A DNA stretch of 64,000 nucleotides from the NCBI RefSeq assembly GCF_021155765.1, contig NC_060112.1, forward strand, positions 6,758,001-6,822,000, in the 5' to 3' direction. Below the pieces are notes generated by a model. That model was not told the origin of the DNA. It did no database searches and worked only from the letters and a program-made list of their open reading frames with translations. Position numbers and translations under genes: made by a program. This document shows positions 11,617 to 52,700 of this stretch, one piece after another (positions within the stretch are counted from its first letter, which is position 1; the number at the start of each line of letters is the position of its first letter). The stretch comes from Diprion similis (lineage: Eukaryota; Arthropoda; Insecta; Hymenoptera; Diprionidae).

Positions 11617-12927
11617 CTACATTGAATTAGCGCTAACTTCCTCCACTGTAACGTCCGACGTATGACAATGTGATAATAATTTGTTACTAGCTCTGTAATT
11701 GAAAGACTCTATGCCGGGATGCTTTTCACACAAGTATTTGTACGCTGTGCAGAGGCGATCTATTTCCGCTACTTCAAGCATAAACGGTCTTGTCGTGGGG
11801 TCAACTTCGGCTAGCTTTACCATCATCATTCCAAGCTCCTTTCGAGAAGAAAGCGGAAACAGAGTCCTGAAAGATAGCAAACAACCTTTAACAAGAATCG
11901 ATGCTACTAATAGATGAATTAGGAACTGGAACAAGTCTACAAGGTAAACGATCCACAATTAAAGTTCAGCCATATGTCTAACATGCGTTTGTCAAATTCC
12001 AGCATACTCACTCTGTACATTTCACAACGTATTTCTGACGAAAACTGAATATGTGCCGAGTAACTTTCTCAAATAATTCAAATTCATGGTTTGTACGAGG
12101 CTGTACCAGTGGTGTAAATGTCACGACTCCAACATCTACGTCAGGCTGTGGAACAAATGCTTTGCCTATAGCAAAGCAGGTGGTAATTAGATGAGGGATT
12201 TTTTAATGAACTCTGAGATAATTCATCCAAAAAGATAAGCACAAAAACGCATGTGCTTCAAATTAATACAGTAACAGCAAAACTGAAATGTTTGCTCACC
12301 GGGAATGATGAACTTTAGCGTTGGTTTAGTCCAAGCCTGTGCCATGACTGACAATCTGCAGCGATCCCGAGCATATGCTTCTGAGACAAGGCGTTCAGCA
12401 ACTTCCTTTTGAAAGGTAAGTGTCATTCTGGTTCTTCCCATGGCCCACGGTCCGCTTTTCTCAGAGATAGCTTTAAGCCAGACGATAATAAGATGGGTTG
12501 AAAGGCTGAATGGCAGATTGCCGATCAAATGAATCCTTGGAGAGATATCGTCCCAGCTTTTCTTTTCGCACTCAGGAAATACGTTCAAATTTACTTTCAA
12601 TATATCTCCTATGATTATTTCCATTTCGCCATTTACGTTTTGAAACGTTTCTTGGAGCAGCTGCAACGTAGGCAAAAATCTATCATCTTTTTCAACTACT
12701 ATTAACTTCTGGGGATACTTTCTCATTATGGATCGCGTCAATCCCCCTGGTCCAGGTCCGACTTCCAATATATGTGCATCTTTTATTCTACCTGCCATTT
12801 TGATGATTTTATCTGTGAGACGTTCGTCCATTAAGAAGTTTTGGGACAACTGTTTACGTGCTTGAAGGCGATACAGTTTGACCAAATCTCTTATCGAGGG
12901 CAACGGAGGTAATCTTAGAACACTCAT
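11617..12927 (-). CDS. TFB1M: Mitochondrial dimethyladenosine transferase 1 (mtTFB1 / TFB1M)
   Basis: Three exons (complement of 12300-12927, 12012-12165, 11617-11866) join in phase to 343 residues, close to the usual vertebrate length. The family dimethylates two adjacent adenines in the helix near the 3' end of mitochondrial small-subunit rRNA. The SAM-binding Rossmann fold is clear: QNFLMD (29-34), LEVGPGPGG (54-62), acidic EKD (79-81), GDIL (107-110) and the catalytic GNLPF (136-140). The second exon carries VPQPDVDVGVV, also typical of KsgA/Dim1 enzymes. Splice sites are ordinary GT-AG. The start has A at -3. The ATG lies only 99 bases past the COA3 stop on the same strand with no obvious promoter between, so both proteins probably come from one transcript. 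Family assignment is firm; co-transcription is inferred. Confidence 0.95.
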
Positions 12928-13026
12928 TTTGATGTGAACTTATTATTTTCTGTATATTTTTTCAGTGTTAGATCGTAACAATCTATGAATATATCTAATA
13001 CTATATTATTGTTGTCTTCGTGATAA

Positions 13027-13290
13027 TTACTGTTCTGTCGTTTTTGCTGGCTCTTCAAAATCATCAAGAAAATTTTCCTGGCGAACTGCGTACATGGAGT
13101 ATCCGTATATTCCTAAAACCATTGCCCCTAGCGATAGACCGGTTATTCTATTGTTTCTTCGCATTCGTTTCAACCTGTTTACTCTCTCAAGATTCTTCTC
13201 TTCTATAATCCGCATGTACTCTTGTTCCACAATCGACAATTTACGAAAGTTTTTCCCTTCGTGAATTTTTGGCATCTGCTCATCAGCCAT
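13027..13290 (-). CDS. COA3: Cytochrome c oxidase assembly factor 3 (COA3 / CCDC56)
   Basis: A single-exon frame of 87 residues. The family is a small inner-membrane protein that stabilises newly made COX1 during complex IV assembly. The sequence shows a hydrophilic N-terminus, a basic Arg/Lys/Asn stretch (about 35-48), one membrane segment (about 49-69, ITGLSLGAMVLGIYGYSMYAV trimmed at its ends) and an acidic C-terminal tail, the layout expected of COA3. The start context has G at -3 and G at +4. An acceptor-like AG lies at 13302-13303 just upstream of the ATG, suggesting a spliced 5' UTR. TFB1M begins 99 bases downstream on the same strand, matching the upstream-frame arrangement reported for Drosophila mtTFB1. 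RMC1 diverges on the other side. Confidence 0.93.
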   Translation of the reverse strand: MADEQMPKIHEGKNFRKLSIVEQEYMRIIEEKNLERVNRLKRMRRNNRITGLSLGAMVLGIYGYSMYAVRQENFLDDFEEPAKTTEQ

Positions 13291-14156
13291 TGCACAACGA
13301 TCTGTAAACGGATGAACAAAACTTTAATGAGATCCGGATTCATCAATTTTTATCCTATTTTGTGATTGCGCCGTCTTATGAACAAATAATATTCCATATC
13401 TTGTAGAAGTTCTTTTTTATTATCATTCAATTCAATACAAGTATAGCATCGTTTAGTGTAAGAGTGAAATAACGTTCTTTGTGACACCATAGCGACTAGA
13501 AATATATGGATATTAATCACGCGGCAACAAAACTGAGAGTCAGAGTAAATTATCGAGGAGAATAAAAAAATCATTGTAAACCGAAAAATTCCTCAGTTGA
13601 TCAATCATCGTCAATAAATTTTTGTGGGTAGAAATTAGAGGTTAGAAAGTCGCGGAGTCTACCCGCGTTCCAAGTACCTGGACATTTGTGACCGTGATAC
13701 TTAATCGAAACCGTTAACCGCGAATAACGTCACTTAATTGTAAAAACCGTTGATATATTGCAATGACTCGCCTCTATGTTGCAAGAAATACGGGATGATC
13801 TTCAATCCAAGTACGTTATGTCGATTGCTACCATGAATACCATGATGTCCATGATGATGCTCATACGATGATGATGATCATGAGGCCCAGTATTATTAGT
13901 ATCTTCAAACTCTGCTAGATGGCGCCACCATTGCATAAACCGTCACTTACCTTACTGACGATTGCAGTTGTCTCTACATCACTTGCCGACCGTGGTCCGT
14001 AGGTAGTTTCGTTAATGATAAATGTTTTTAGCCAATTGCATCTTCGAATAGCTTGGAAATAACCAATGAGATGGCTTTTGATGTTTGAGCCAATTTACCA
14101 ACACGTGTGAATCAGGTTGTTGTTAGTCAGTTCTGTGAGCTGTCAAATAGCGAAAA
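13291..14156. promoter_or_regulatory. Shared promoter region between COA3-TFB1M and RMC1
   Basis: This 866-base gap separates two divergent coding starts. CCAAT boxes occur at 14032-14036, 14063-14067 and 14090-14094, spaced 31 and 27 bases. An exact insect initiator, TCAGTT, lies at 14127-14132, which would give RMC1 a 5' UTR of about 28 bases. An imperfect ATG/CAT-rich stretch lies at 13836-13885. The boxes and spacing are seen; NF-Y binding and bidirectional use are inferred. No coding exon is seen. Confidence 0.55.
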
Positions 14157-17100
14157 ATGGAAGCGTCGAGTAGCGAAGGAAACGATGATTATTACCTGGA
14201 ATTGTCGCCTGACCCCGTAAGGTTCGAGTCGATAAGTCCGTTGACGAATGTTTTCTTCGATGACACGAACAAGCAGGTCTCGTTATTTTGACTTTCTTAA
14301 ACCGCATTGATTGCCTAAAATATTACTGATAGATTATCTTTCGTCTGATGGTTGCTTGACCGCTGCAAAATTCATGCTATAGGTATTCGCTGTTCGCTCA
14401 GAGGGCGTCATCGGGGTCTTGGTCAAGGGCCCCGAGCACAATTTGAACTTTAGAATGGAAGACAAGGGTCCCATAATCTCGATCAAGTTCTCGCCTGACA
14501 TGAACATCCTTGCGATACAGCGGACTAATACATCCGTCGAGTTCATCAATTACTCGTCGGTCTCCGGATTGGACAATGTGGAATACTCGCAGTCCTGCAA
14601 AGGGAAGAATGCCTCTATCGTAGGCTTTGTCTGGACACACAGCAATGAAATTTTATTGGTCACAGATCACGGAGTAGAACTGTTTTTGGCGAGTATTAAG
14701 CAGAGATTTTCTTCTGCCTACTTTACTCTACTTCTATCTGGATCGCTGCACAAAAAGTATCATATAACTCTGCATAGACCTCAGATCAATAATACTCAAA
14801 ATTTTTTAGGTGGTTCCAGAGAAGCGAACTGTGAAAGCCCTCAAATCCCTTAGTTTGGGTGTCAATTGGTTTGTCTTCTGCCCTCAGAGCTACCTCGTTC
14901 TCCTCTCGTCTGGCACCATTGGTAACCAAATGCAAGCGCTGCATATCACTCCTGGAAACTTGCACAAGCTCGCCAAATTTGAAAGTGAGTCAAAATTCTC
15001 GTGTTTAACTTTGAAAAATTGATTAGCCGATTAACGGAGATAGATGTTACATCGTTTTAGTGGAAGCTGGAGCCACGAAACCTGGGAAACTCGCAGTTTC
15101 AGAGAGAGACGTAGCATTGGCAGTTCTTTACGGAATCCCGTCAATAATTGTGCTGCGCCATCAACCAGGAATCAGTCGAAGCCTTGGTACGGCTCAAGTC
15201 TACGTCTACACAGTACATAAGTAATTTCGTAATTTGTTTTTTTCTGCGATTTTGCCTCTTTCAAAGTACTCTCAATGATTCATCGATGATTTACTGTTCC
15301 AGAATGCTCACGATAAAGAAAAGCCACATTTTGAAACTTGACACTAGTGGCCGATTCGCTATCAATGTTGTTGACAATCTTATAATTGTGCATCATCAAG
15401 CATCCGAAGTAAGTCTTGTTCACGAAGAAGTACATTTTCGAAAACAGGATTTTTTAGGCAATTAACTGATCCGAAATAAACCCACTGATGTCTATTGTTT
15501 AGTTTATAAAAACAGTTTAGCATCATTTTTTATTACTGGATGTGAACCAATTAGAATCACTTTTTCTTGCCATTGAGACACATCAGTCTTTGAGTTTTAT
15601 CTCGAGAGTAATTGATTGATAAATTACAGACTTCGATGATCTTTGACATTAAATTGCCAGGAGTGAGCGACGGCACTGTGATACATCATACCAGTATAGC
15701 TTCACCCAAGCCGATAAGACCATACAGTTTGAAGGTCCCTGGCACGACTTTGCTAGAGCAATTGTCTCAGCCCTGTCTACTTTGTATCCTTTCAAAAAAA
15801 AAGATAATGATTGTAAAAATAACAACATTGATCACCAAGCATTTTACTTAATTTCTCGCAGATTCCCCTAGCTGGGTTGTTTTTCAGCCGAATATAATAA
15901 TCGATGCGAAATTAGGATGCCTTTGGTGAGTTCAGAAGGAAAATATTCAACGTCTTTTCAATTTAGAAGTGTAAAAAAACGAAGTTGTTGATTATTCACA
16001 GGTTTGTTAAACTGCGGCTTGAATCGTTGATAAAATTAATCCCTGACAAGGTACAGCTCGTCGAGTTTTTAATGCAACGAAAAGATTCCAAGCAAGTTTT
16101 GATGCAAGTTCTGAAGGAGAATGTTACTCAGCTACCGTCGAGCTTGTTGTACATGTCAACAATTTTTGACAAGTTGAACTCTGTCTATCGTAGTCACCTC
16201 GAAAACGAGTTGCAAAGCCAAGTAAGTGACCGTTGTGGCTAATAATAGTGATAAAGAACCCCTTTCACCTTCATCTTCCATTGATCAATTTACAGATGGG
16301 AACGCCGCTGCAAACTGGATCCAAAGGTGTCACCACAGTATTGGAAGATATTAAATACAAACAAATAATCGATCAGAGTGACATGTACACTCACATACTG
16401 TCGAAATTTCCCGAGGACACGACAGAGCCGAAAATGGTGGTTTGGATACTGTTAGAATACATCAGGTACATACAGGCCTTGGCAAAAACTATAGTTTGAA
16501 AAGGTTTTTTTTAGCGTATACCCAGGCCGGAAGCTCCCTGAGTATAGCGTCTCTAAATAAACTTTTTCCGGTTCTTTTCCTCAGGTCTCTGGCTGATCAC
16601 GATATACCTGTTCAGCACTACCTCCACGAATTGGTAATCACGACTTTGGTTCACCGGAAAGCTTACTATCAGCTGCATCAGCTGCTACAGTATCACGTTG
16701 TCGCTGACTCTAAACCACTTGCCTGTCTTCTACTCTCTTTGGAAAATCTCTATCCAGCTGCTCACCAGCTTGCGCTAGACATGCTCAAGCGATTAGGAAA
16801 TGCACACGAAGAAATAATGGAAGTCTTGCTTTCCAAAGGACACATATTACCGGCTTTACGGTGAGCTGGACACCCTAGAAAATGCCTTTTGTGATTGCAA
16901 AAAAGAAATTTCATATTTCAAGGTGATCCATTTGGAGAAAATACGTATTTTTCTGTTACAGGTACGTCCGATCGGTCGGAATAATCGATCAAGTTTCTGC
17001 TCGGAAATTTTTGGAAGCAGCAAAGACCACGAACGATCCTAAGTTATTTCACTCCGTTTATAAATTCTTCGAACATCGTAATTTGAGACTCCATAACACA

Positions 17101-17223
17101 ACTGCTTTCACAAGAGGGGAACATTGTCAAACATATGTACAGCATTTTAAATATTTATTCCAAGAAACTGACAATGGCTGTAATTCGGATACGAATTCAA
17201 ATGTATCGGCTATGTCATCATAG
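14157..17223 (+). CDS. RMC1: Regulator of MON1-CCZ1 complex (RMC1 / Mic1 / C18orf8 homologue)
   Basis: Eleven exons join in phase: 14157-14276, 14383-14688, 14810-14984, 15061-15220, 15303-15408, 15630-15783, 15862-15925, 16002-16221, 16296-16465, 16585-16860 and 16962-17223, giving 670 residues against about 657 in human. RMC1 is the third subunit of the MON1-CCZ1 exchange factor that activates Rab7 on late endosomes. The N-terminus (DYYLEL, ANKQVFAVRS-like DTNKQVFAVRS, FRMEDKG) fits the beta-propeller. The C-terminus (VQHYLHELVI, SDSKPLACLLLSLE, ARKFLEAAK) fits the Mic1 helical domain. Intron 2 needs a GC donor at 14689. Intron 6 (15784-15861) has a perfect U12 donor. Intron 1 has a weak GTCTCG donor. 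The exon 4 end at 15220 was chosen for phase. Family call is very secure. Confidence 0.96.
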
Positions 17224-17756: not shown

Positions 17757-20700
17757 ATGGGTAGATTATCGCTGTCACATATGACAAGTTGTCAAAAATT
17801 CGAACATCGCTTATTTCTACAACAACAATTTACAAAACTTTCACCGAATGCATTGAATGCATTGACTAAATGTAGGTACGCAATAGTAGCTACGTTCACG
17901 TTGTCGCCGAAGCAATCTCTACAGCTTCAGGCATGCAAACTGATAGCTGGTAGAAATAACAAAATGGCGATGATGGTCGGAGATCTAATTGAACGAGTGA
18001 ATACAATCTGTGAAAATAAACAAGTACTTAGTGAATTAGCGAGAAATAACGAGGTGAAGATTAATTGCGTAAAGTGTCAACTATACGAATACATTTTTTT
18101 ATCATTGAATCCGTATCGCTAGGATCGATTAAAGCGTAATTGTTCTGCCGCATTTTTCAGTTCGACGAACCCAGCAAAGAAGAACTCGACAAACTATTCC
18201 ATAAATTGAACGCTGAGAATGCCAGGGAAATTGTGAATCACATGCACAGCTATGAGCCAGCTTGGCACAACAAAAAGGTGAGCCAAATTGCTGTCAACGC
18301 TATCGAAATCCCCCGCGTCATAACCTCAAATTACGTTCGTGTTGACATCGCAGCTCGGTTGTCCAACTCGGAGATTTTTGTTTATGAAGTCGCAATGTCT
18401 TAGGTAATCGCTGCTAGATAAACAATCGCTCAATTTGGCTATCGGATGTATTACAAAATTTTTATAAATTGTAGAGAAATGAAGTTTTTTTTATTATAAC
18501 TTCTGATTTTTTTTTTTTTTTTTTTTTCTATTTTTTTATTATTATCACACTGCACATTATAATTTTTCTGTACCAATGCCAAATAATCTGTTGACATGAT
18601 GATGCGCTATGTTTACATTCCCCGCCACAATGTCATAATAAAAACTTTTCTATGTTCCAATTATGTAACACTTATCGTTATTTTCATTATCTTGGAATAA
18701 AAAAAAAGAGGACAAAACACAAGATAATATTGTTTTAGAACCTTAAATAATCTATCACTAGTATCAAAATCAATGGAAATTCACCCTGATTCATGTTGAC
18801 GAGAAAATCGATGTTTTGGATTAATAAATGAAACTGGATTCCTAATTTTTAGTTGAAGTTTCTTCTTTGAAGAATTAATTTATTTGGAGAACAGTATCAC
18901 ACGAAGCCAATATTCAGCTAGTTTTTTTGTTCGATTAACCAAGTAAAAAATCATATTTTCTCTAGGTGACAGGACGCCTTTACGGTCCTATACCAGGAAT
19001 ACCATGCGGTTCTTGGTGGGGAATAAGGATGGACTGTTCGAGAGATCGCATGCATGATCCTTTCAGTTTAAGCGTGCAATGTGGTCCAGTAGGAGCAGTT
19101 TCGGTCTGCACCTCACATTCAGAAGAGGATGTTGACTTGGGAGACGTGTTGAGCTTCACAGCTGATCCAAGCGCTGAGAAACAAGGTCGCTACGTCAAGG
19201 GCAAAGAGCAAACCCCGGAGAATAGGTCCTTGATCTTGAGCTTGGAGAATCGGGTGCCGATACGCATAATCAGGAGCTACAATTTGTCCAATGAATACTC
19301 GCCAAAAACGGGGTATCGCTACGACGGCCTGTATGTAGTCATAAAATACTGGATTGGTGTATCTCCGGAGACAGGTTCAAAGTGCTATAAATTTGCACTA
19401 AGACGACTCCTCCACCAGGATCCTCCACCCTGGAAATTGCAAGCTCCTTGTGACAAAGGCTTTGATCCAGGTGCCAATAGCAGCGATACGATTATATCTC
19501 GATGCATTTCTACAAAGAAGTTTCAGGGCAGAGATGGTAAAATGGTAATTCGTTTATTGCTACATTTTTTTCCATGAATGCTTATTTGCTTGTACAAAGT
19601 ACGTCGATATAGGTTGAAATTCTGTACTAAATGTAAATTGCAGCAAAATCTGTGAATGAATTTCTCTAGGAAAATGTCTCGATATATTTTTTTAGCAACT
19701 ATTCTTTTTCCAGTCGCAACTGCATGCACCTTGCAACGATAATCCGAGTAAAGCTGCTAAATCCGTGGAGAAAGAGAAACAAAGTTTTTTGAAAGAAGAA
19801 AGATCATCAGTTGGAAGAGCTGGCAATTTGAGTGGACACGATATTACGACGACAGTGTCAGTTTTACCAGGTAAAAAAATCGCCTTGGATGATCATACAC
19901 ATGTTCAAGGTAGCACGATCGTTACTAGACGTGTATCCAAAAAAACACCAAACAACAAATCCGACGGGAAGCAACTAATTTCTGAGGCTAGTAACAAACC
20001 GTCCAGTGAAACACAGCCACGAAACGAACCGGGTGAAGAAGAAGGAATGAAGTCTCAGGGTACCCGACTCCAGAACACGAACATATCGATTCGGTACGAT
20101 TTATATGATTCTTCTCACAACATTAAGCAGCGTGGTTCCAACGTCGCTACTCACAGCAGTGGCGGAAGTTGCGTGTTTAAACCACGTGTGCACATTGTTC
20201 CTACGAGACAGCTGCACTTTGCAGGAGTTGATTCGTCGCCTGGAAGCAGTAGCAGGACGATTTCGAGTGTGAAAATGGAGCGAGTCAAGTCATTCAGCGG
20301 TGCGAAAAAGTTGAACCTTAACGAAGTTTGTAATGAAGGAGAAATTTCGTCGCTGATCCATCAACAAAACCCGCAATTATCTGTGGAACACTCGTATGCT
20401 ACGCAATTGACAGAGTCGTTGGAACTGCGCTGCGAAAAGGTTGAAGAAAATCGTCAAAATTTTGTAAATAGGGGGACGGATGAAAAGGAAGCGCTTCTGA
20501 AACCTTGTCAAAGGGAAAGGAGACATAAGAAAAATAGTCGAGAGTGTGAATCTCATATATCTCCTTCGATGGAGCAGACAGAAGTACGAAAAACCTTTGA
20601 TGCTTTGAATAGAATTCAATCAACTATCAATGACGATTCTTTTTCTGGAGACACGTTGACTGGAAGAAAACTTGCAGATGTTACGATCCCTTCGCCGTCT

Positions 20701-23700
20701 GAGAGTCCACCATTCAAGGGATTCGTATCAGCGAGAGAAATCGAGAGGAAAAAATTATGGCCCGAAGCGTTGGAAATGGCAAGTTCACTCACTGTTGAAA
20801 AGATGCTGGATATAATAACAGAGGAAAAGACTAGTCCAATGGCAAAGATGCTGATAAGTACTGTGATCGGATTCCCGAACGTCGAGACCCTTCCTGTCTG
20901 CAACAATAACAAAGAAACCACGTTAACGAACGTTCATTATGAAGGGCTAGATAATCCGACGCAGAGAGCGACATATCGGAATAAAACTGGAGTGCAAACT
21001 GCCCTAAATAAACGAACACCATTGAGTATGAGAACCAGATCCTGTGCTAAACTCTGTGAGCAAACAGTGGCGAAGACTGTTCAAGAAAAAGAAACCGTCC
21101 CTAATGTTTCCAGTGAAAGGTTGAAGATGGTCGACAAAACTATATTGTGTTTGGAAAGAATCGGCGATGACTATCCGACGAAAATGTCGCGTTCGAGGCA
21201 ACTCAGATGCTTGGATAACAGCAAAGAGCAAAACATCATCGAAATAGTTTATGCCGGTGAAGAGTCTGTCGGAAATCAACGAGCGGTGACAACAAATTTG
21301 AATCATTCACACAGGCTGAGGTCCAGCGGGAAAGTGGACGTCGGTGAAAAGCCAACAATTAAAAACCCTGGTATCAAAGCCACCGAACAACCACCCATGC
21401 TCGTTAGCAGAGCGAGAGAAGTTTGCGTTCGGAGTAACAGAAATCTGCAATGGCCTGACGCAGTGAACACCAATGCTGCTAATCACGTAGTAACAAGGCG
21501 TAAGAGCAACTCCGAGTCTTGCAAAGGTGATGGAGAAGCTAATGCATATGAAACTGTTCCGAGAGGAACCGAAAACCAGTCAAACAACACGTCGAGTAGT
21601 GCGAAGTCGGTTGATACGGTCGACTGTTCAAAAATAACTAAAGATTCGTGTATACAATTGAAAGACCAGAATGAAACGAACGGCTGTTTGATCGGTGCGA
21701 GGAAATCTTCAATGCCAAATAAGCCAGAATTTGTCGAAAGAACAGACAATGCTTGTCTTCAAAAATTTCTGCACAGTGATCAGACGCTTGTGACGAAATC
21801 GACTGAGAAATCTAACGGCGAACGAATTTCAGGTAACAAAGTGTTGAATTTTCGGGGAAATATGGTTTCGGAAAGACTGCAGGAATCCAAAACAACTTCT
21901 CAGAGTTCTGAGGCGCGTGATATCACTGCAGATTCGGTGGCTCGAAATTTTACTAGCGATATCAATAAGCCATCGAGTCTTAAACCGCTTGGTGGAGTTA
22001 CTCGTTCCAAAGAATCTGGGCTGGTGTCTAGGAAGAAAGACAGATCGCCGGAAAAGATCAGACTGGCAAAAAGGCCGAGAGTTCGTGTTAAACACAAGCT
22101 AGAAATAGCAAATTTAGTCATAGACATGAACATGAGCCCCAGATCGCAGATCTCTAAGTCAAGATCAGGTCGGTCCCTGAGGGGCGTTGATTACTTGCGT
22201 GGCGGAAGGAGTTGCCCGACTATCCTGGACCAGTCGAGGAAACGAAGGAACACCGAGCCCATTCAGCACACGTCAAGTTTGTCAAAGCAGATGAGAAAAA
22301 ATGCCCAGATCTCAAACTCTTCCATCCGAATTGCGGATGCGACGAATTCCATGAAGGAGCTTAAACTTCGAAACAAGTCAGAAAGGGACAAATCACTATT
22401 AAACAATAACAACAACGACAACAACGGGGATAGTAAGAACAGTAATTCGATGCGACGGATCGGCAGAACAGAGAAAATCGTGACAAAAATAAAGAAACCA
22501 ACGAAAGCTAAGAAGTCTAACATTGTTACAGCGAGGAGAGCGATAGCAGACATACCGAAGATGATTCGTAAGCAAGATTTGGTGGCAACGGCCAAGAAAC
22601 AGCCCAGCGAAGTACCTCCGAGACCCACGAGACGAGAGGCTATGACCAGAACACGGAGTGGAAGAAGTCCGAGAAGTTTAACCATTGGGAGACTCTGCAT
22701 TCGCAGACCATTGCTTCAGAGTGGCGAAACCTATGCACTAACGAAGAAGAATAAGAGGGATACGAGTGAGAGAGCAATTAAGCAAAATTCAAAGCCTGGT
22801 AAACAGCCGTTGCCCCGGAAAGAGCCAGCAAAATTCGCGCGGCTTAACTACAACGTCGAAAAACGGTCAACTGAGGTGCGGACGAAGTCAAAAATGGTTA
22901 GCGTTATGGTGCAGTGTTCTCTGATTCCAAATCCTCCGGAATCTCCCACCTGCGATCTCGATGCCACCTGTCACTCAAAGAGAAACAGTCCATCAGATAC
23001 AAGCGTAAACACTGGATATCTGATCAGTGAATACATCGGTAGTCCTCGTAATTCTGAATCGAAAAGAGTGAAACACGAGGTGATCGATTTGATTGAGATC
23101 AAGTCTGAGAGCGGCGGCGAAAACGTGGTCGACTGCCAGTTGGACGACGACGAAATCGACAGGGTAGAAAATGCAGCCCTTCGAATAAAGCCTTCGACTA
23201 GTAATCCAGTCTTGTCAAAGTCGAATCGCAAGAAATCGACCCTTGATTTGGCATACCTCAACGATCAGCGAAACAAGGATTCGCTTTCGAACAGAGGATT
23301 TGTGCGCTACGTTCCAGGCCAAAGACAGCCCGTCGTTGTCCCGGTGAAAACGGCGGGGGTAAAATTCATGATCACGAAGCTAGAATCGATTGGATTCAAG
23401 CCGATAAAACCTAGGATTCATTCCAACGACGAGTCGGAACGCGGGCGGCGAAGCACCAGCGACAGTCCCAGAATATTATACGTGAGCAAGGTCGTGAAAC
23501 GAGGTGTAAACGAGGAATACGACAAGTATACTAGCGAGGAGAATAACGTGGTCCAGTACATGGACAGTGAGTTATGCTACGAGGACATAGAGAACGAAGA
23601 CAAAGATTTGTGCGTTCAAAAAATGGAGTTCGTCAAATTCGGGGACAGCATAGACGAGGAGAGTTTCGATATCTCAGAGTTGTACGGTGAAGAGGAAGAG

Positions 23701-23988
23701 GAGGAGGAGGAGGAGGAGGAGGAGGAGGAGGAGGAGGAGGAGGAGGAGGAGGAGGAGGAGGAAGAAGTGGAGGAGGAAGACGAGGAGAATGTCAAGGACG
23801 AAGAAGAACAGGAGGAGGATTTTGGACGTGACCTTAAATCGGAATGGCAATCTCAGCTCAACGAGGATGGAACCAGTTCAAATTTCGATTACGAACAGTC
23901 GGCTGCTGATTCTGATGGCGACGTACCGCCATGGCACGGATGGAGGAAAATTGTATCCAACAAAGAGACACATTTTGTTGGGTGGTAA
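17757..23988 (+). CDS. SRA (YDG) domain protein with long disordered acidic tail
   Basis: Four exons in phase 0 (17757-18053, 18161-18277, 18966-19544, 19714-23988) give 1755 residues. Exons 1-2 are helical with no recognised domain. Exon 3 opens with YGPIPGIPCGSWW and contains EEDVDLGD, an FT pair, ENRSL and YRYDGLYVVIKYW, the signature of the SRA fold that binds modified or hemimethylated CpG in UHRF1 and plant SUVH proteins. The last exon (1424 residues) is Ser/Lys/Arg/Glu-rich and disordered. It has many basic RSGRS-type patches, one more ordered block near 20720-20900, and an acidic C-terminus with a long poly-Glu run. No ubiquitin-like, tandem Tudor, PHD or RING domain is seen in these exons. 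UHRF1's base-flipping NKR finger is not recognisable. The link of exons 1-2 to exon 3 rests on phase and splice sites only. Role in chromatin is inferred. Confidence 0.8.
23690..23775 (+). repeat. GAG trinucleotide repeat encoding poly-glutamate
   Basis: A nearly pure GAG tract lies in frame near the end of the SRA protein and encodes an uninterrupted run of over 25 Glu, followed by further Glu/Asp. Its near-pure codon use marks it as a recent slippage-prone microsatellite, and its length may vary between individuals. Confidence 0.95.
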
Positions 23989-30643: not shown

Positions 30644-36700
<6,057 letters not shown>

Positions 36701-46716: not shown

Positions 46717-49700
46717 TTAACCCTTCTTGAATTTAATCAGCAATATCGATAACGTGAGGAATATTATTATCCACAGGAAAGTGGCGATGAAACCGTCGTA
46801 AACGGCTGGCTGGGATATGGACCATCCTTTACCGAGCATCGCCCTGATCGACTCTGTGCTCTTCGTCAACGGCAGGATAAAGCTGATGTATCTAAGGACA
46901 GGATTCATCCCCTCGACTGGCCAAATGATTCCACAGAGCATGACGATTGGCAGAAAAGAACCCATCGCCATGTAAGTTGCGCTTCGTTCGTTGTCGCAGG
47001 CGCAGGCAACCACGAAACCTGCGGATATCAATTATGTCGGTCAGCGGTTACTCGCTCAATTATGTCTCTTTGAAAGTTCAATCAATACTGTGAGATTAAT
47101 TACCGAAACACATTCCACAGAGACCCGTCAACACCGTCAGAGCCGTCACCCAAGCGATGCTGCCATGACATGTCAGCTTGAATACCGCAAACGAAAAGAC
47201 TAGGACCATCAATGTTTGACCGCACATAACAACGAACTGGGTCACCACCTGGCCGAACAAAATCTCCGTACCGCTGATACCTACGAATACGAAAATGGAT
47301 GAAATTAAAAAACGGTATGTCATTACAGATGAAAATGAAGAACATTACGGATTGTGAACTCATTTTAAGATAGTATATTTTGTCTTATCGCAATATTCAA
47401 AAGCAGGGGGATTGTGTGCTCAGAGGTTTTTTTTTTTTTTGAAATTGGACGAATATTTTTACACTTTTATTTACTCACCGGAAACTAAACTTCTTTCCAT
47501 TAAACCTTCGTTCCTTTCAAGTAGCAGCGCTCCGGACGTCAAAGCAACGGAAAGGAAGAAAATGATCCTGAAAAATTAAATGAAAATGTTAACAGATCCG
47601 ATCACCAGTCGTATTGTCCTTAGTTTTTTTTTTTTTTCAAATGTGAAATCTTGACCGGTCATGAATGTTTTCATTTAAAATCCGTGATCTAGGGGGAAAT
47701 TACTTAATCTGTAAAATGTTATTTCTTCTCTTTTTAACATAACTTACGTCAATATAATTCCGGGTGCGGCAAAGTCCGTGAAGTTGGGTTCCTTGGGTCC
47801 ATAAATCGGCGTACGGAACTGAAGAAGAATAATGACATTCAAATTCCACGGTACATACATATTTTTTTTTGTCATAAATATTACATCTGGCTTTCTAAGT
47901 TGAATGATTTTTATATATTGTATATACTTACATCCATCGGAATGCTGGTAGCTTTTTCGCTGTAGTCGCAATCGCGCGAAACATTTTTAGCGAAGTCCAT
48001 AAAAGCGTACAGCAGATCCCTTTGAAGTAGCTGCCCGATTTGCTGATCTATGAAACAAATTATAGATTAGAATGCTGATTTCGTGATCGATTAAGGAATT
48101 TAATAATTGTCAGATCAAGAATAACGTGCGCCTCAATCGGTTTTACAGTCCCATCGACAGTCGAAATTTTGTTGTTTTTGTTAAAATTATTAAAAATCTA
48201 TTCTACTCAAATGTTATTCAGATGAAAGTCGTAATTCACTAACTCGACATGTCCATCGTGACATCGACGTCCGAATACTGGATGCTCCATTCGTCGGCAT
48301 CTCTGCCATTGTCCATCCGATCGACAAGAGACTTGGAGTAATTTGAAGGGAAGTTTAAGACAGCCCATGCCCATCCCTTCTTTACCGCATATTTTGCATC
48401 CTCGTCGGTTTTGTACGGAACAAGATCGACTTTTCTCTCTTTTAAATGCTCCATGTACCGACAGCTTAGTAACGTCCTGTCACATCCAGCGTAAACCGTG
48501 CAAGGATCCAGTGAATTGTTCAGCTCGTTGTTTACCACAGCGAGTTTAAGTCCGACCGGATCTCTTCCGATCGATAAGCAAAACAGAATTATTTGCACTA
48601 CTGGCAATCCAATTACGAACGCCATTACGCTGAAAAATGAATGAAAGAAACAAGTTATAAAATAGACTCATGTCAGTAACGATATGTATTCTTTTTTGCT
48701 TTTGTTTCAGGGATATTGTCAAGATACCGAGTGGATAATGCTCACCCGAAATTTCGCCACATCCATAGAAAGTTCTTCCATATCAGAGCTTTCATATGGC
48801 AAGGATCCAGCATCTTGAATGACGACTTCGACCCCTTTTCCTCGGGTGGCAGATCGGGAACCTTAAATGTTGTAAACGCTTGTCAGGTATGCAGATTCGC
48901 TTGTACATCGCCTAGTTTTCACGTCTTTGACGACACCGTCGTATTGACTCGGAAGTTTTGAAAAATCATTTTAGAATTGTACTCACTATTTCGTCGTCGG
49001 TTGGGGTTATCGCAATGCTTCTTCGTCGACTCGATATACTAACATTGTCACCAAACTCTCCGCTCATCTCGTCGTCTATGTTCTGAAATACAGAATAATC
49101 AATTGTATTTTACCCCTGCAATGAGTTCCAGTAGAAAAAGAGTGAATTTTAAGAATTTTAACGTACAAAAATTTACAGAAATCTGCAAATTATGTACTTA
49201 GCTTGCGATATTTCGCATTGAGTCTTACAAATGACATCGGAATCTATTCAATCTCGTTGGATATGATAACAGAGTCAGAGAACTTTTGTACGATGTCAAG
49301 AAACTTTAGAAAATATTTACAGTTGCATTATTAAAAATTCTACGAAATCGGCTGTTCATTGAACTGTCTTTGAATTTTTCAACCATTACTAATGATTTAA
49401 ACTCCTTGTTGATCATTTTTCTTGAGCTTGTTCAATTTTGCAAAAGTATTGCGAATCACGATGTGTATAGGTACAATGTATAATAGTAAGAAGTCTGGGA
49501 GAAATCATCATTGCGATCAGGGAAACAGCGAAGAGTTTAGAAATTCTCAAAACCAACATGACATAACAACGCAATAACGGTTTTTATTTTCACCCACCAC
49601 TTCAGGAGGAACGCCGATGACGCTACTGAGGATGCTGCTCCTTCTTCTCAGTCCCATGTTCTGCCTGCGGCTTAACTTGAGGAAAACCTCCTCGAGGGTG

Positions 49701-52700
49701 TCGAGCCTGTGCATGGCCATTAGTCTGGTGGGCGATTCTTCGGCGAGGAACTTCCCCCCCCTCATTAAACCGATGATGCTGGCCTGCCTCGTCTCCTCTA
49801 TATAGTGAGTAGTTATTATCACAGTTCTGTTCCCGTCTTTAGTTATGTGCACCAGGTGGTCCCAGATGCTCTGCCGCAGCACCGGGTCCACACCGACCGT
49901 CGGCTCGTCCAGGATCAGCAACTCTGGATCTGGAAGAAGCGCCGCTGCGAACGAGACTCGCCTCTGCTGGCCTCCCGACAAGCTCTTTACGAAACGATCT
50001 TCTCCCGGTAGCTGGAGCAGCTGAAATATCGTTTGAGAATGAGATATAATCGGTTTATTGAGGTTTTTTAGGGGGAAGATGGACCGACGAATGGACACTC
50101 ACCTTGATCAGGAATTCGAGCTTCTCGTCAACCTGCTGAGTCGTCATGCCTGCGCACCAGCCGAAGAAGATGAACGTTTCCCGTATTGAGAATTCGCCGT
50201 ACAGTGCTAGCTCCTGCGGCATGTATCCTACCCGAGGGCCCGGAACTCCGGATCCCTTGGAGCCAGGACGACCGCCCAGCACCCATATTTCACCGGAGTT
50301 TAACCGTCGTCTGCCGACGATGCAGGAAAGCAACGTCGTCTTTCCACATCCGCTCGCGCCGAGCAATCCATAGCTGTTTAGAACATAAGTGAAGGTCATT
50401 ATTTGAAAAGGATCAGAAATTAGAAGGGAGAGTAATACCAAATTTTCAATTACCCCTTCCTATTTTGCACAATTTTTAGCTTATTGTGAAAGCTGGAATA
50501 CATAGAAAGTTTAATATGTAGGAAAGTGAAGTATAGAAAGTCAATATAGAATCGTTAGAATTCTGCACAGGAAAATTGTAACAGAATAAATTTCACATGA
50601 GCGTTTTTTGAAAATTTAATAATTTTACTCTTCTACTTTTTCTAATCTTCTACACTTTTGTTCCCAGCCCATTTTCTCACCGTTTACTTCATTTTTTAGA
50701 TTAATACAACTGTACAAAGCGATGAACATAAGAGGCAATGCTTCGGCAAAGTGACTTTCGCAGACTTTTCTGCAAGCAATCCAACCCGAAGTTGCCTAAT
50801 TTTGGATCGCCGGCTCTTCACACAAATACCTGATCAACTGACATGTGAATTTGACAGGTAATATTTAGTGCAATTAATATTTTTCAGGCGGTAAGATTCA
50901 TTTTAGAATCACATTGATAACTTTGGATGTTCAACTTGACTTTTGACCAGCTTCAATTTCCATTCTCTGCTTTTGCTTTTCGTTTCGCAATCAACTATAG
51001 TCCCGACTTATTTAAATTTCTGATTATATTAAATTTTACACATAATTGTGAATTCTTAAAGATTTAATGTTTCCGTGACGTATGAATTTACATTATACAT
51101 ACATCAATACGAGATTTTATTAAATTCGTATATTTTATAGATAAGTAGAGAAGGAAAATATTCCTGCTGTACTTATAAGCCACCAAAATGGATGATGATG
51201 TTTTTACAATTACGTTTATACTACACTTCGTACCTGGGTAGGATTGGGAAGCTGCCAAGGTTATTTTGTACGAAAGGGTAATAAATATTTAGATACATCC
51301 AAGGTTCGAGTCGCTAATATGTAAAGGCGGTATTGAAACTGCGTTACGCGCTCTAGCTTGTGTGATATAATAAACGCGGCTCCGATCATACGCGTGGCAC
51401 ACACACACCTTGATGTTCTAACAAGGCTCCAAAGTACCTGTTGAATACTTGAACTTGCTTACGTATCCGGAAAAAAATAATCAATGTATGACTCGGATGT
51501 ATTGTAGACAGCAAATTACAAGATCAAGTTTACTTCAATATTAATTTTTGCAAATTACAAATTCCATATTTACTGTTTATTATACCTATAATGGATATTT
51601 TATTGCGTATATAAGAAATTTAAACGTCCATATATGGATATGTAATCGCTTAAACCGTTTAGCTTGCAGATACGGAAGTATTCCGTCCCAATTTATCGTT
51701 TCACGCTATAATCATGGTCGCTCTTTGTTTTGGTTCTTAGTTTTTGTTTTTGCTTACTTTGCTTGTCGTATTTCGCGCGCGCGTTTGTATGAGAATATTT
51801 ACTGCAATGCAAGAGCTGCGGGTTCAAACCGTCAAGTATGCAAAGTCAATCCGGAGGTTTTTACTTTATTAATTACGAATCCGTTGACGTCAATCGCATG
51901 GTTTGAGACCGCGTTTTAATGTGTAAATGTATTTGAGAAAAAAACTGGGAAAAATAAAAGAAACTCAACGAAGATGAAGCAAGAAAGATATACTTGAGAT
52001 ATGAGCTTTGTGTTTGTCTCAAGGATGCATATTATATGCATAAGCTGAAGTACAGCCACAGAGATTGAAGATCATGGTGGAGATTAGATCGGTAATAAGG
52101 ACAGCTTATTTTTGTGTCATTACATCCATATGCCCTCTAACATTAGGCTAACAATAAGAAACCGAAGAAGAATATGAAGAAAACATTGGAGAAAAAAACT
52201 ATGAAAATTACAGTCATTGTCAGGGTGAGAGAAATCCCACGTGTATATTGATTATACATGTGTGAATGTGTGTAAGCTTGCGCAAGTGAGATTCTGAGAG
52301 CCTTTGGCTAGGTCGGAAAGTTACGGAGGTACTATAGGTGAGGCTGTTGTCAGGCTTTGGACCCGGTTGGTCATCCATACTCCGAGGTCCGTGGGTCAGT
52401 ACTTAACGAGCAAAAACGTTTCTGCATAATTATAACACGAGACTATGTCCTTCGTTGAGTGTTAATATGTTATCTGTAGCTGTACCTCGCAGTCAGATCA
52501 CATTACTGCCACAATTCTATTCAAGCGTGGTGGGCGATGTACTTAATACCCGTATCGTATCACGATGTCAAAAATTTTTATGCTATGCTAATTGAAACGG
52601 CGATTGGAAAACTATACAAAGATCTTTGAAATTTCAAAATTTGATTTGTAAATTAATTGGAAACTAAAGTTTAATATCGCTGGTGTAGTTGCTGGTAATA

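Follow-up and report, generated by a model that had tools for sequence, protein, structure and literature searches.

The SRA gene and its surroundings

The window, by which we mean the whole stretch of 64,000 nucleotides from Diprion similis that was analysed, carries an SRA gene (Table 1). The gene for RMC1 (regulator of MON1-CCZ1) precedes it on the same strand, with its last open frame ending about 530 bases upstream of the first likely SRA-gene exon, and offers a synteny anchor. On the opposite strand are COA3 and an exon for a TFB1M-type rRNA adenine dimethylase, with COA3 just upstream of the latter; in Drosophila these two genes are carried on one bicistronic transcript. Farther along the window, also on the minus strand, lie exons of an organic solute transporter and an ABC transporter.

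The open frame of the SRA exon runs from 18966 to 19577 and includes the motifs YGPIPGIP, EEDVD, and YRYDG, with the domain itself at about 18978–19433. This frame ends 30 bases past its splice donor, the frame of the tail exon begins 18 bases ahead of its acceptor, and the first methionine of the tail comes only at residue 112; we thus read the two as one gene, joined across an intron of 169 bases with GT-AG ends. All three introns of the gene are GT-AG and phase 0, and the predicted spliced product has 1755 residues and no internal stops. Both frames in the span that an earlier note on this DNA had assigned to the gene (18966–23988) are real, but that start is probably too late, as the two upstream exons fit the frame. 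The first of them opens at its first in-frame ATG, an uncertain start codon, and ends with LSELARNNE followed by GT; this exon and the start codon are the least certain parts of the predicted gene model. A profile search of the first two exons returned no Pfam family over its cut-off, and a 69-residue query made of the end of exon 1 and exon 2 matched only its own two places in the genome. The SRA gene is single-copy as far as searched (269 Mb, 60 contigs). The same genome gave 103 matches to 7tm_6, an odorant-receptor family that marks insects.

The last exon is open for 1430 codons up to its stop; the longest forward open frame among 200 single-base shuffles of the exon was 151 codons. The length given beforehand for the tail was correct, and the description of it as mostly disordered derives from composition only: 1114 of 1374 tail windows were classed as disordered by charge-hydropathy. 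No Pfam family was found in the tail up to E 0.1. Among the best candidates scored, its one match in the genome was itself, which led us to reject the idea that it is a piece of a repeat or transposon. The tail contains a strongly basic stretch, a VIDLIEI sequence that resembles a SUMO-interaction motif, and a run of glutamates whose codons form an almost pure GAG repeat, possibly variable in length. The CpG observed/expected ratio was 0.89 for exons 1–3, 1.17 for the tail, and 1.29 for the whole window.

Table 1. Coordinates of the SRA gene, its motifs, and neighbouring genes in the window.
Feature	Position	Strand	Basis
TFB1M-type rRNA adenine dimethylase exon	12223–12939	-	
COA3 frame	13027–13323	-	Pfam Coa3_cc, 83 bits
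RMC1	14383–17223	+	C- and N-terminal Pfam matches
Likely first coding exon	17757–18053	+	Open frame, GT donor, phase 0; inferred from sequence
Likely second coding exon, FDEPSKEELDK...EPAWHNKK	18161–18277	+	AG acceptor, GT donor, phase 0
Exon with the whole SRA domain	18966–19544	+	Pfam SAD_SRA, PDB sequence matches, AlphaFold/Foldseek
Thumb-loop equivalent FSLSV; human Gly448 (glycine in 15/15 other SRAs) to Ser	19062–19076	+	Alignment
SHSEEDVD; Tyr466 to Ser, Gly464-Gly465 lost, Asp469 kept	19113–19136	+	Alignment
SFTADPS; Tyr478 to Phe, TGxGG glycines lost, Thr479 kept	19152–19172	+	Alignment
QGRYVKGKEQ, finger-loop equivalent, short non-NKR form	19182–19211	+	Alignments
Last exon, 1424-residue tail, stop TAA	19714–23988	+	Open frame, AG acceptor
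Strongly basic tail stretch, net charge +55 over 400 residues (701–1100)	21814–23013	+	
VIDLIEI	23080–23100	+	Pattern match only
Run of 26 Glu, GAG/GAA repeat	23689–23766	+	
Organic solute transporter exon	35417–36145	-	Ostalpha, 267 bits
ABC transporter exon	49550–50098	-	

SRA identity and the separate UHRF1 gene

The third exon encodes a genuine SRA domain. It matches Pfam SAD_SRA at 94.7 bits (cut-off 30.7) over profile positions 2–147 of 148, and a sequence search of the PDB returned UHRF2 first (66.6 bits) with UHRF1, then SUVH6, TagI, and SUVH5. An AlphaFold model of the exon (8 sequences) had a mean pLDDT of 75.9, and when its first 150 residues were taken in blocks of ten, 10 of these 15 blocks scored at least 86. 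Foldseek matched the model best to the UHRF1/UHRF2 SRA (E about 1e-11, probability 1.00, TM about 0.6), with an rmsd of about 4 to 6 over 160–190 columns. The profile match over the curated cut-off and the predicted SRA fold together place the domain in the family. Confidence in the predicted structure of the pocket is only moderate, since pLDDT was 75–77 for residues 51–70 and 52 for residues 71–80; beyond residue 150 its mean was below 50.

The partner domains of UHRF1 were sought in the window and across the genome. A scan of the window for C/H patterns in six frames found neither PHD nor RING and recovered both in the control UHRF1 locus; on this evidence we rejected the idea that RING and PHD exons had been missed nearby. 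The only TTD match of the genome lies on contig C4, and none of the 30 ubiquitin-family matches found genome-wide falls in the window, UHRF1's own being among the 30. The earlier note, which had seen an SRA domain here without Ubl, Tudor, PHD, or RING, was thus borne out on both counts; of the separate UHRF1 and DNMT1 that it proposed to look for, the former was found on another contig and a DNMT1-like gene is present as well. Three stretches matched in the genome search for the SRA family: that of the window and two in a single gene on C4, which we identify as a complete UHRF1 because it combines ubiquitin-like, TTD, PHD, SRA, and RING exons. Of the DNA methylase matches, the one at C10:9620671 adjoins a weak BAH match (20.3 bits, under the cut-off of 30.8), and we infer that it is DNMT1-like; the one at C10:17142361 goes with a DNMT3 ADD match; and the layout of the one at C3:5808615 suggests a DNMT2-like gene. 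The DNMT1-like and DNMT3 genes make it likely that 5mC is present in the species. With no partner domains in the window and a complete UHRF1 elsewhere, the conclusion that the window gene is distinct, and is not UHRF1, is supported.

Losses in and around the pocket

We aligned the window SRA with 15 others, namely the same-genome UHRF1, human UHRF1 and UHRF2, plant SUVH4, SUVH5, SUVH6, and SUVH9, TagI, six bacterial loci, and one locus from a viral contig. Eight of these rows are therefore prokaryotic or viral (TagI and the seven loci); the rows for TagI and the bacterial locus L014 are partial, and a Janthinobacterium plasmid SRA was left out. The SRA frame of L014, which comes from a metagenome contig (29–463), stops ahead of the RYDG block and its tblastn match continues to base 651; the frame seems to be shifted. 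Columns identical in at least 80% of the 15 other SRAs were taken as conserved, giving 42. The window SRA keeps 25 of them and changes 17, compared with 31 of 39 to 37 of 37 kept by the others in leave-one-out scoring, with gap columns set aside for TagI and L014.

These losses are concentrated in one region, the base-flipping half of the domain. By human UHRF1 numbering, 14 of the 22 conserved columns between 440 and 501 are changed, and outside this stretch 3 of 20 are (p = 0.0018 by Fisher's test, for a boundary drawn post hoc, after the losses were known). Varying the conservation threshold (three values) or the MAFFT setting (three), or removing the eight prokaryotic and viral rows, left the direction unchanged, with p between 0.0004 and 0.018. 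The changed columns are Gly440, Gly448, Ile449 (Val), Gly464, Gly465, Tyr466 (Ser), Asp468 (Glu), Tyr478 (Phe), Gly480, Gly482, Gly483, Asp498, Gln499, and Leu501, with Gly464 falling opposite a gap rather than Ser in the third alignment setting. Asp469, Asp471, and Thr479 are among those kept.

Passages of PMC5995235 describe how Tyr466 and Tyr478 of human UHRF1 sandwich 5mC while Asp469 bonds it, and the TagI pocket has the same two tyrosine walls and aspartate according to passages of PMC6212794. In the window SRA the walls are Ser and Phe under all three alignment settings, the second thus still being aromatic, and no aromatic residue lies near the first (SVCTSHSEED). The two aromatic walls of a 5mC-flipping SRA reader are therefore not both present; its carboxylate is, residue 55 of the exon being Asp. 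The human G448D variant interacts more weakly with all DNA in the part of PMC6816099 that describes it, but this is a hint only, as residue 448 is Ser here and not Asp.

The finger loop departs from UHRF1 in a less distinctive way. QGRYVKGKEQ aligns with NGRHIKDQEF of L014 and KGVQVKDQEL of the viral-contig locus L017. The DQ pair is missing from this region in the window SRA; the D is found in 14 and the Q in all 15 of the other rows. Both the NKR finger and the second UHRF insert (GAEAKDWR type) are absent in the alignments, and the plant and bacterial rows likewise lack the latter. TagI has a finger shorter than that of UHRF1, with KKQ (passages of PMC6212794). Finger loops are described in passages of PMC6816099 as divergent among SRAs and as setting selectivity for modified DNA in UHRF1, with flipping not needing the finger; a SUVH5 finger placed in UHRF1 gave tight binding regardless of methylation state. 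We rejected the finger as the main departure, because sequence comparison and passages of PMC6212794 and PMC6816099 show a short finger without NKR to be the usual state among SUVH and bacterial SRAs, and by itself it is weak evidence, since plant and bacterial SRAs with such fingers still read 5mC.

Of the observations made earlier on the domain, the non-NKR finger segment and the replacement of the tyrosine of FTYTG (the Tyr478 equivalent) by Phe were both found in the alignment, and the pointer to the finger was not an empty one, given the part that finger loops play in UHRF1 selectivity (passages of PMC6816099). The description of the SRA core as intact was right in that YGPIPGIP, EEDVD, and YRYDG are present, but with only 25 of 42 conserved columns remaining, and with the Gly-Gly-Tyr ahead of EEDVD, which includes the first pocket wall, turned into Ser-His-Ser, an intact core was rejected. 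That the window SRA recognises DNA differently is plausible from these alignments, and the suggestion is better backed by the loss of the pocket wall, the thumb glycine, the GG, the TGxGG glycines, and the DQ pair.

Origin, possible function, and relation to known SRA systems

The earlier note had called for a phylogeny of the domain. In a tree of the window SRA with the UHRF rows of this insect and of human and with the plant, bacterial, and viral-contig rows, the window SRA sits on a branch of 3.75 changes per column, and no neighbour of it is supported. An exclusive sister relationship with the same-genome UHRF1 was rejected (AU p = 0.008, with long branches in play), and the best tree grouped the window SRA with all three UHRF rows, with support of 19/0. 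AU p values for other groupings were 0.277 with SUVH, 0.137 with a bacterial set (TagI, L017, L011), and 0.089 with all eukaryotic rows; none of these, nor the grouping with all UHRF rows, was either rejected or established.

Two origins are tentatively considered. The gene could be an old, fast-evolving duplicate of UHRF1 from which the other domains have disappeared, along with both UHRF-type inserts and the introns in its SRA, a history to which we give rather less than an even chance. UHRF2 is both the best PDB sequence match and the SRA of highest identity (36%), the first 24 columns are closest to human UHRF1 and UHRF2 (12/24 and 13/23), and the best tree joins the window SRA with the UHRF rows despite the support noted above. 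The rejected sisterhood argues against a duplicate, as do the missing finger extension and second insert, a state shared with plant and bacterial SRAs, and the intron pattern: the SRA of the same-genome UHRF1 reads as cut by three introns (open frames, GT-AG sites) and that of the window by none.

The alternative is a lineage outside UHRF, whether an ancient SRA-only family that some animals have retained or one acquired by transfer from fungi or bacteria, and this too we regard as possible and short of probable. The pattern of inserts and the GYRYDGLYVV block are like those of bacterial and plant SRAs, and in columns 440–501 the window SRA has 18 of 54 residues in common with L014 and 18 of 55 with L016, against 11–12 of 55 with the three UHRF rows. 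TagI shares only 9 of 55 over these columns (all these counts are from the first alignment setting). Figure legends of PMC10538959 also mark RING-less SRA homologues in fungi and across a broader set of eukaryotes. Against this origin, the tree provides no supported placement, and the bacterial and SUVH groupings, though not rejected, are not favoured. Searches for relatives gave no matches among phages and a single plasmid record, a YDG/SRA gene of Janthinobacterium with 31% identity; viral contigs yielded one relative, and genome contigs at least six bacterial ones. The viral one, L017 from an IMG/VR contig (2896–3858, plus strand), is an SRA gene similar in sequence to the restriction enzyme TagI (154.7 bits) whose end looks HNH-like by eye.

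As for function, we put at an even chance the reading that this single-copy second insect gene encodes a non-UHRF1 chromatin adaptor with an SRA fold that has lost canonical 5mC flipping. The predicted protein would consist of a short N-terminal part from two exons, one SRA exon, and a long disordered tail that is first basic and then acidic. Such a domain would be unable to grip a flipped 5-methylcytosine from both sides with aromatic rings in the manner of UHRF1 and, as modelled, of TagI, and for this reason it is probably not a canonical 5mC reader. The remaining SRA surface would most likely make contact with DNA at the level of the backbone or with protein, and the basic tail may hold the protein on chromatin or RNA and recruit partners. 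Its role would then be that of a scaffold or adaptor, the adaptor part being suggested by composition, and not that of a ubiquitin ligase or maintenance-methylation factor. The kept SRA scaffold and the basic, disordered tail are the grounds for suggesting a nuclear role of this kind. Passages of PMC6816099 assign the majority of SRA contacts to the phosphate backbone and attribute flipping to distortion of that backbone and insertion of the thumb, so DNA binding by the window SRA may persist. A precedent for an adaptor role is suggested by the titles of PDB entries, which name UHRF1 as part of oocyte cytoplasmic lattices and of a PADI6-UHRF1-UBE2D3 complex; one title has the RING bound to the SRA.

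It is also possible, but unlikely, that the pocket has been reshaped and the domain still reads bases: it would then still flip, with Phe64 and the retained aspartate gripping a modified or unmodified base. Asp469, Thr479, the Phe, and the scaffold are all present, and the walls in other SRA-like proteins may be formed by different residues; UHRF2 itself has Phe at the first wall (passages of PMC6212794). Selectivity set by divergent finger loops and flipping independent of the finger (passages of PMC6816099) would suit such a reader, as would the probable presence of 5mC. The first wall, however, has no aromatic residue nearby, and Gly448, the TGxGG glycines, and the DQ pair are gone as well. 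That the gene is a non-functional SRA copy in decay, as the many lost positions and a sample of one genome might suggest, is very improbable given an uninterrupted frame of 1755 codons, introns that all have GT-AG ends and phase 0, and the retention of 17 of the 20 conserved columns outside 440–501.

More broadly, some insects may keep a conserved second SRA protein beside UHRF1, a 'pseudo-reader' family stripped of methyl-base flipping and reused for chromatin or protein binding; we consider this quite conceivable, if somewhat short of an even chance. Insect database entries carry the name 'YDG domain-containing protein'. The open-licence PMC matches listed contained no description of a second insect SRA gene or of an animal pseudo-reader SRA family. 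A further animal SRA gene with a dismantled base pocket, in a species with UHRF1, DNMT1-like, and DNMT3 genes, would mean that the SRA scaffold and 5mC flipping have come apart in nature, and would be a caution for surveys of insect methylation, as an SRA match alone may not mean UHRF1. In one such survey the annotation of UHRF1 in Ecdysozoa is described as unambiguous (PMC10538959).

Among known SRA systems, the homologues from fungi and other eukaryotes resemble the window gene in having an SRA without RING, a likeness drawn from figure legends (PMC10538959). The SRAs of plant SUVH4, SUVH5, SUVH6, and SUVH9 share its short second loop and also belong to eukaryotic chromatin proteins, but they keep the pocket tyrosines in all four rows, and the window tail has no SET match. 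TagI, other SRA-HNH endonucleases, and the bacterial and viral loci L011–L017 have a similarly short non-NKR finger and a short loop ahead of P-(V/I)-R, and L017 also has the YSPxTGYRYDGLY block. These eight rows retain the tyrosine walls and the Gln of the DQ pair that the window SRA does not, and, with no Pfam match in the window tail, no HNH was seen there. Compared with UHRF1 and UHRF2, the window gene shows no ubiquitin-like, TTD, PHD, or RING match and lacks the NKR finger, the GAEAKDWR-type insert, and introns inside the SRA, and both of its pocket walls are changed, whereas the fold, the IPGIP start, the Asp469 equivalent, and the RYDG(L/I)Y block are held in common.
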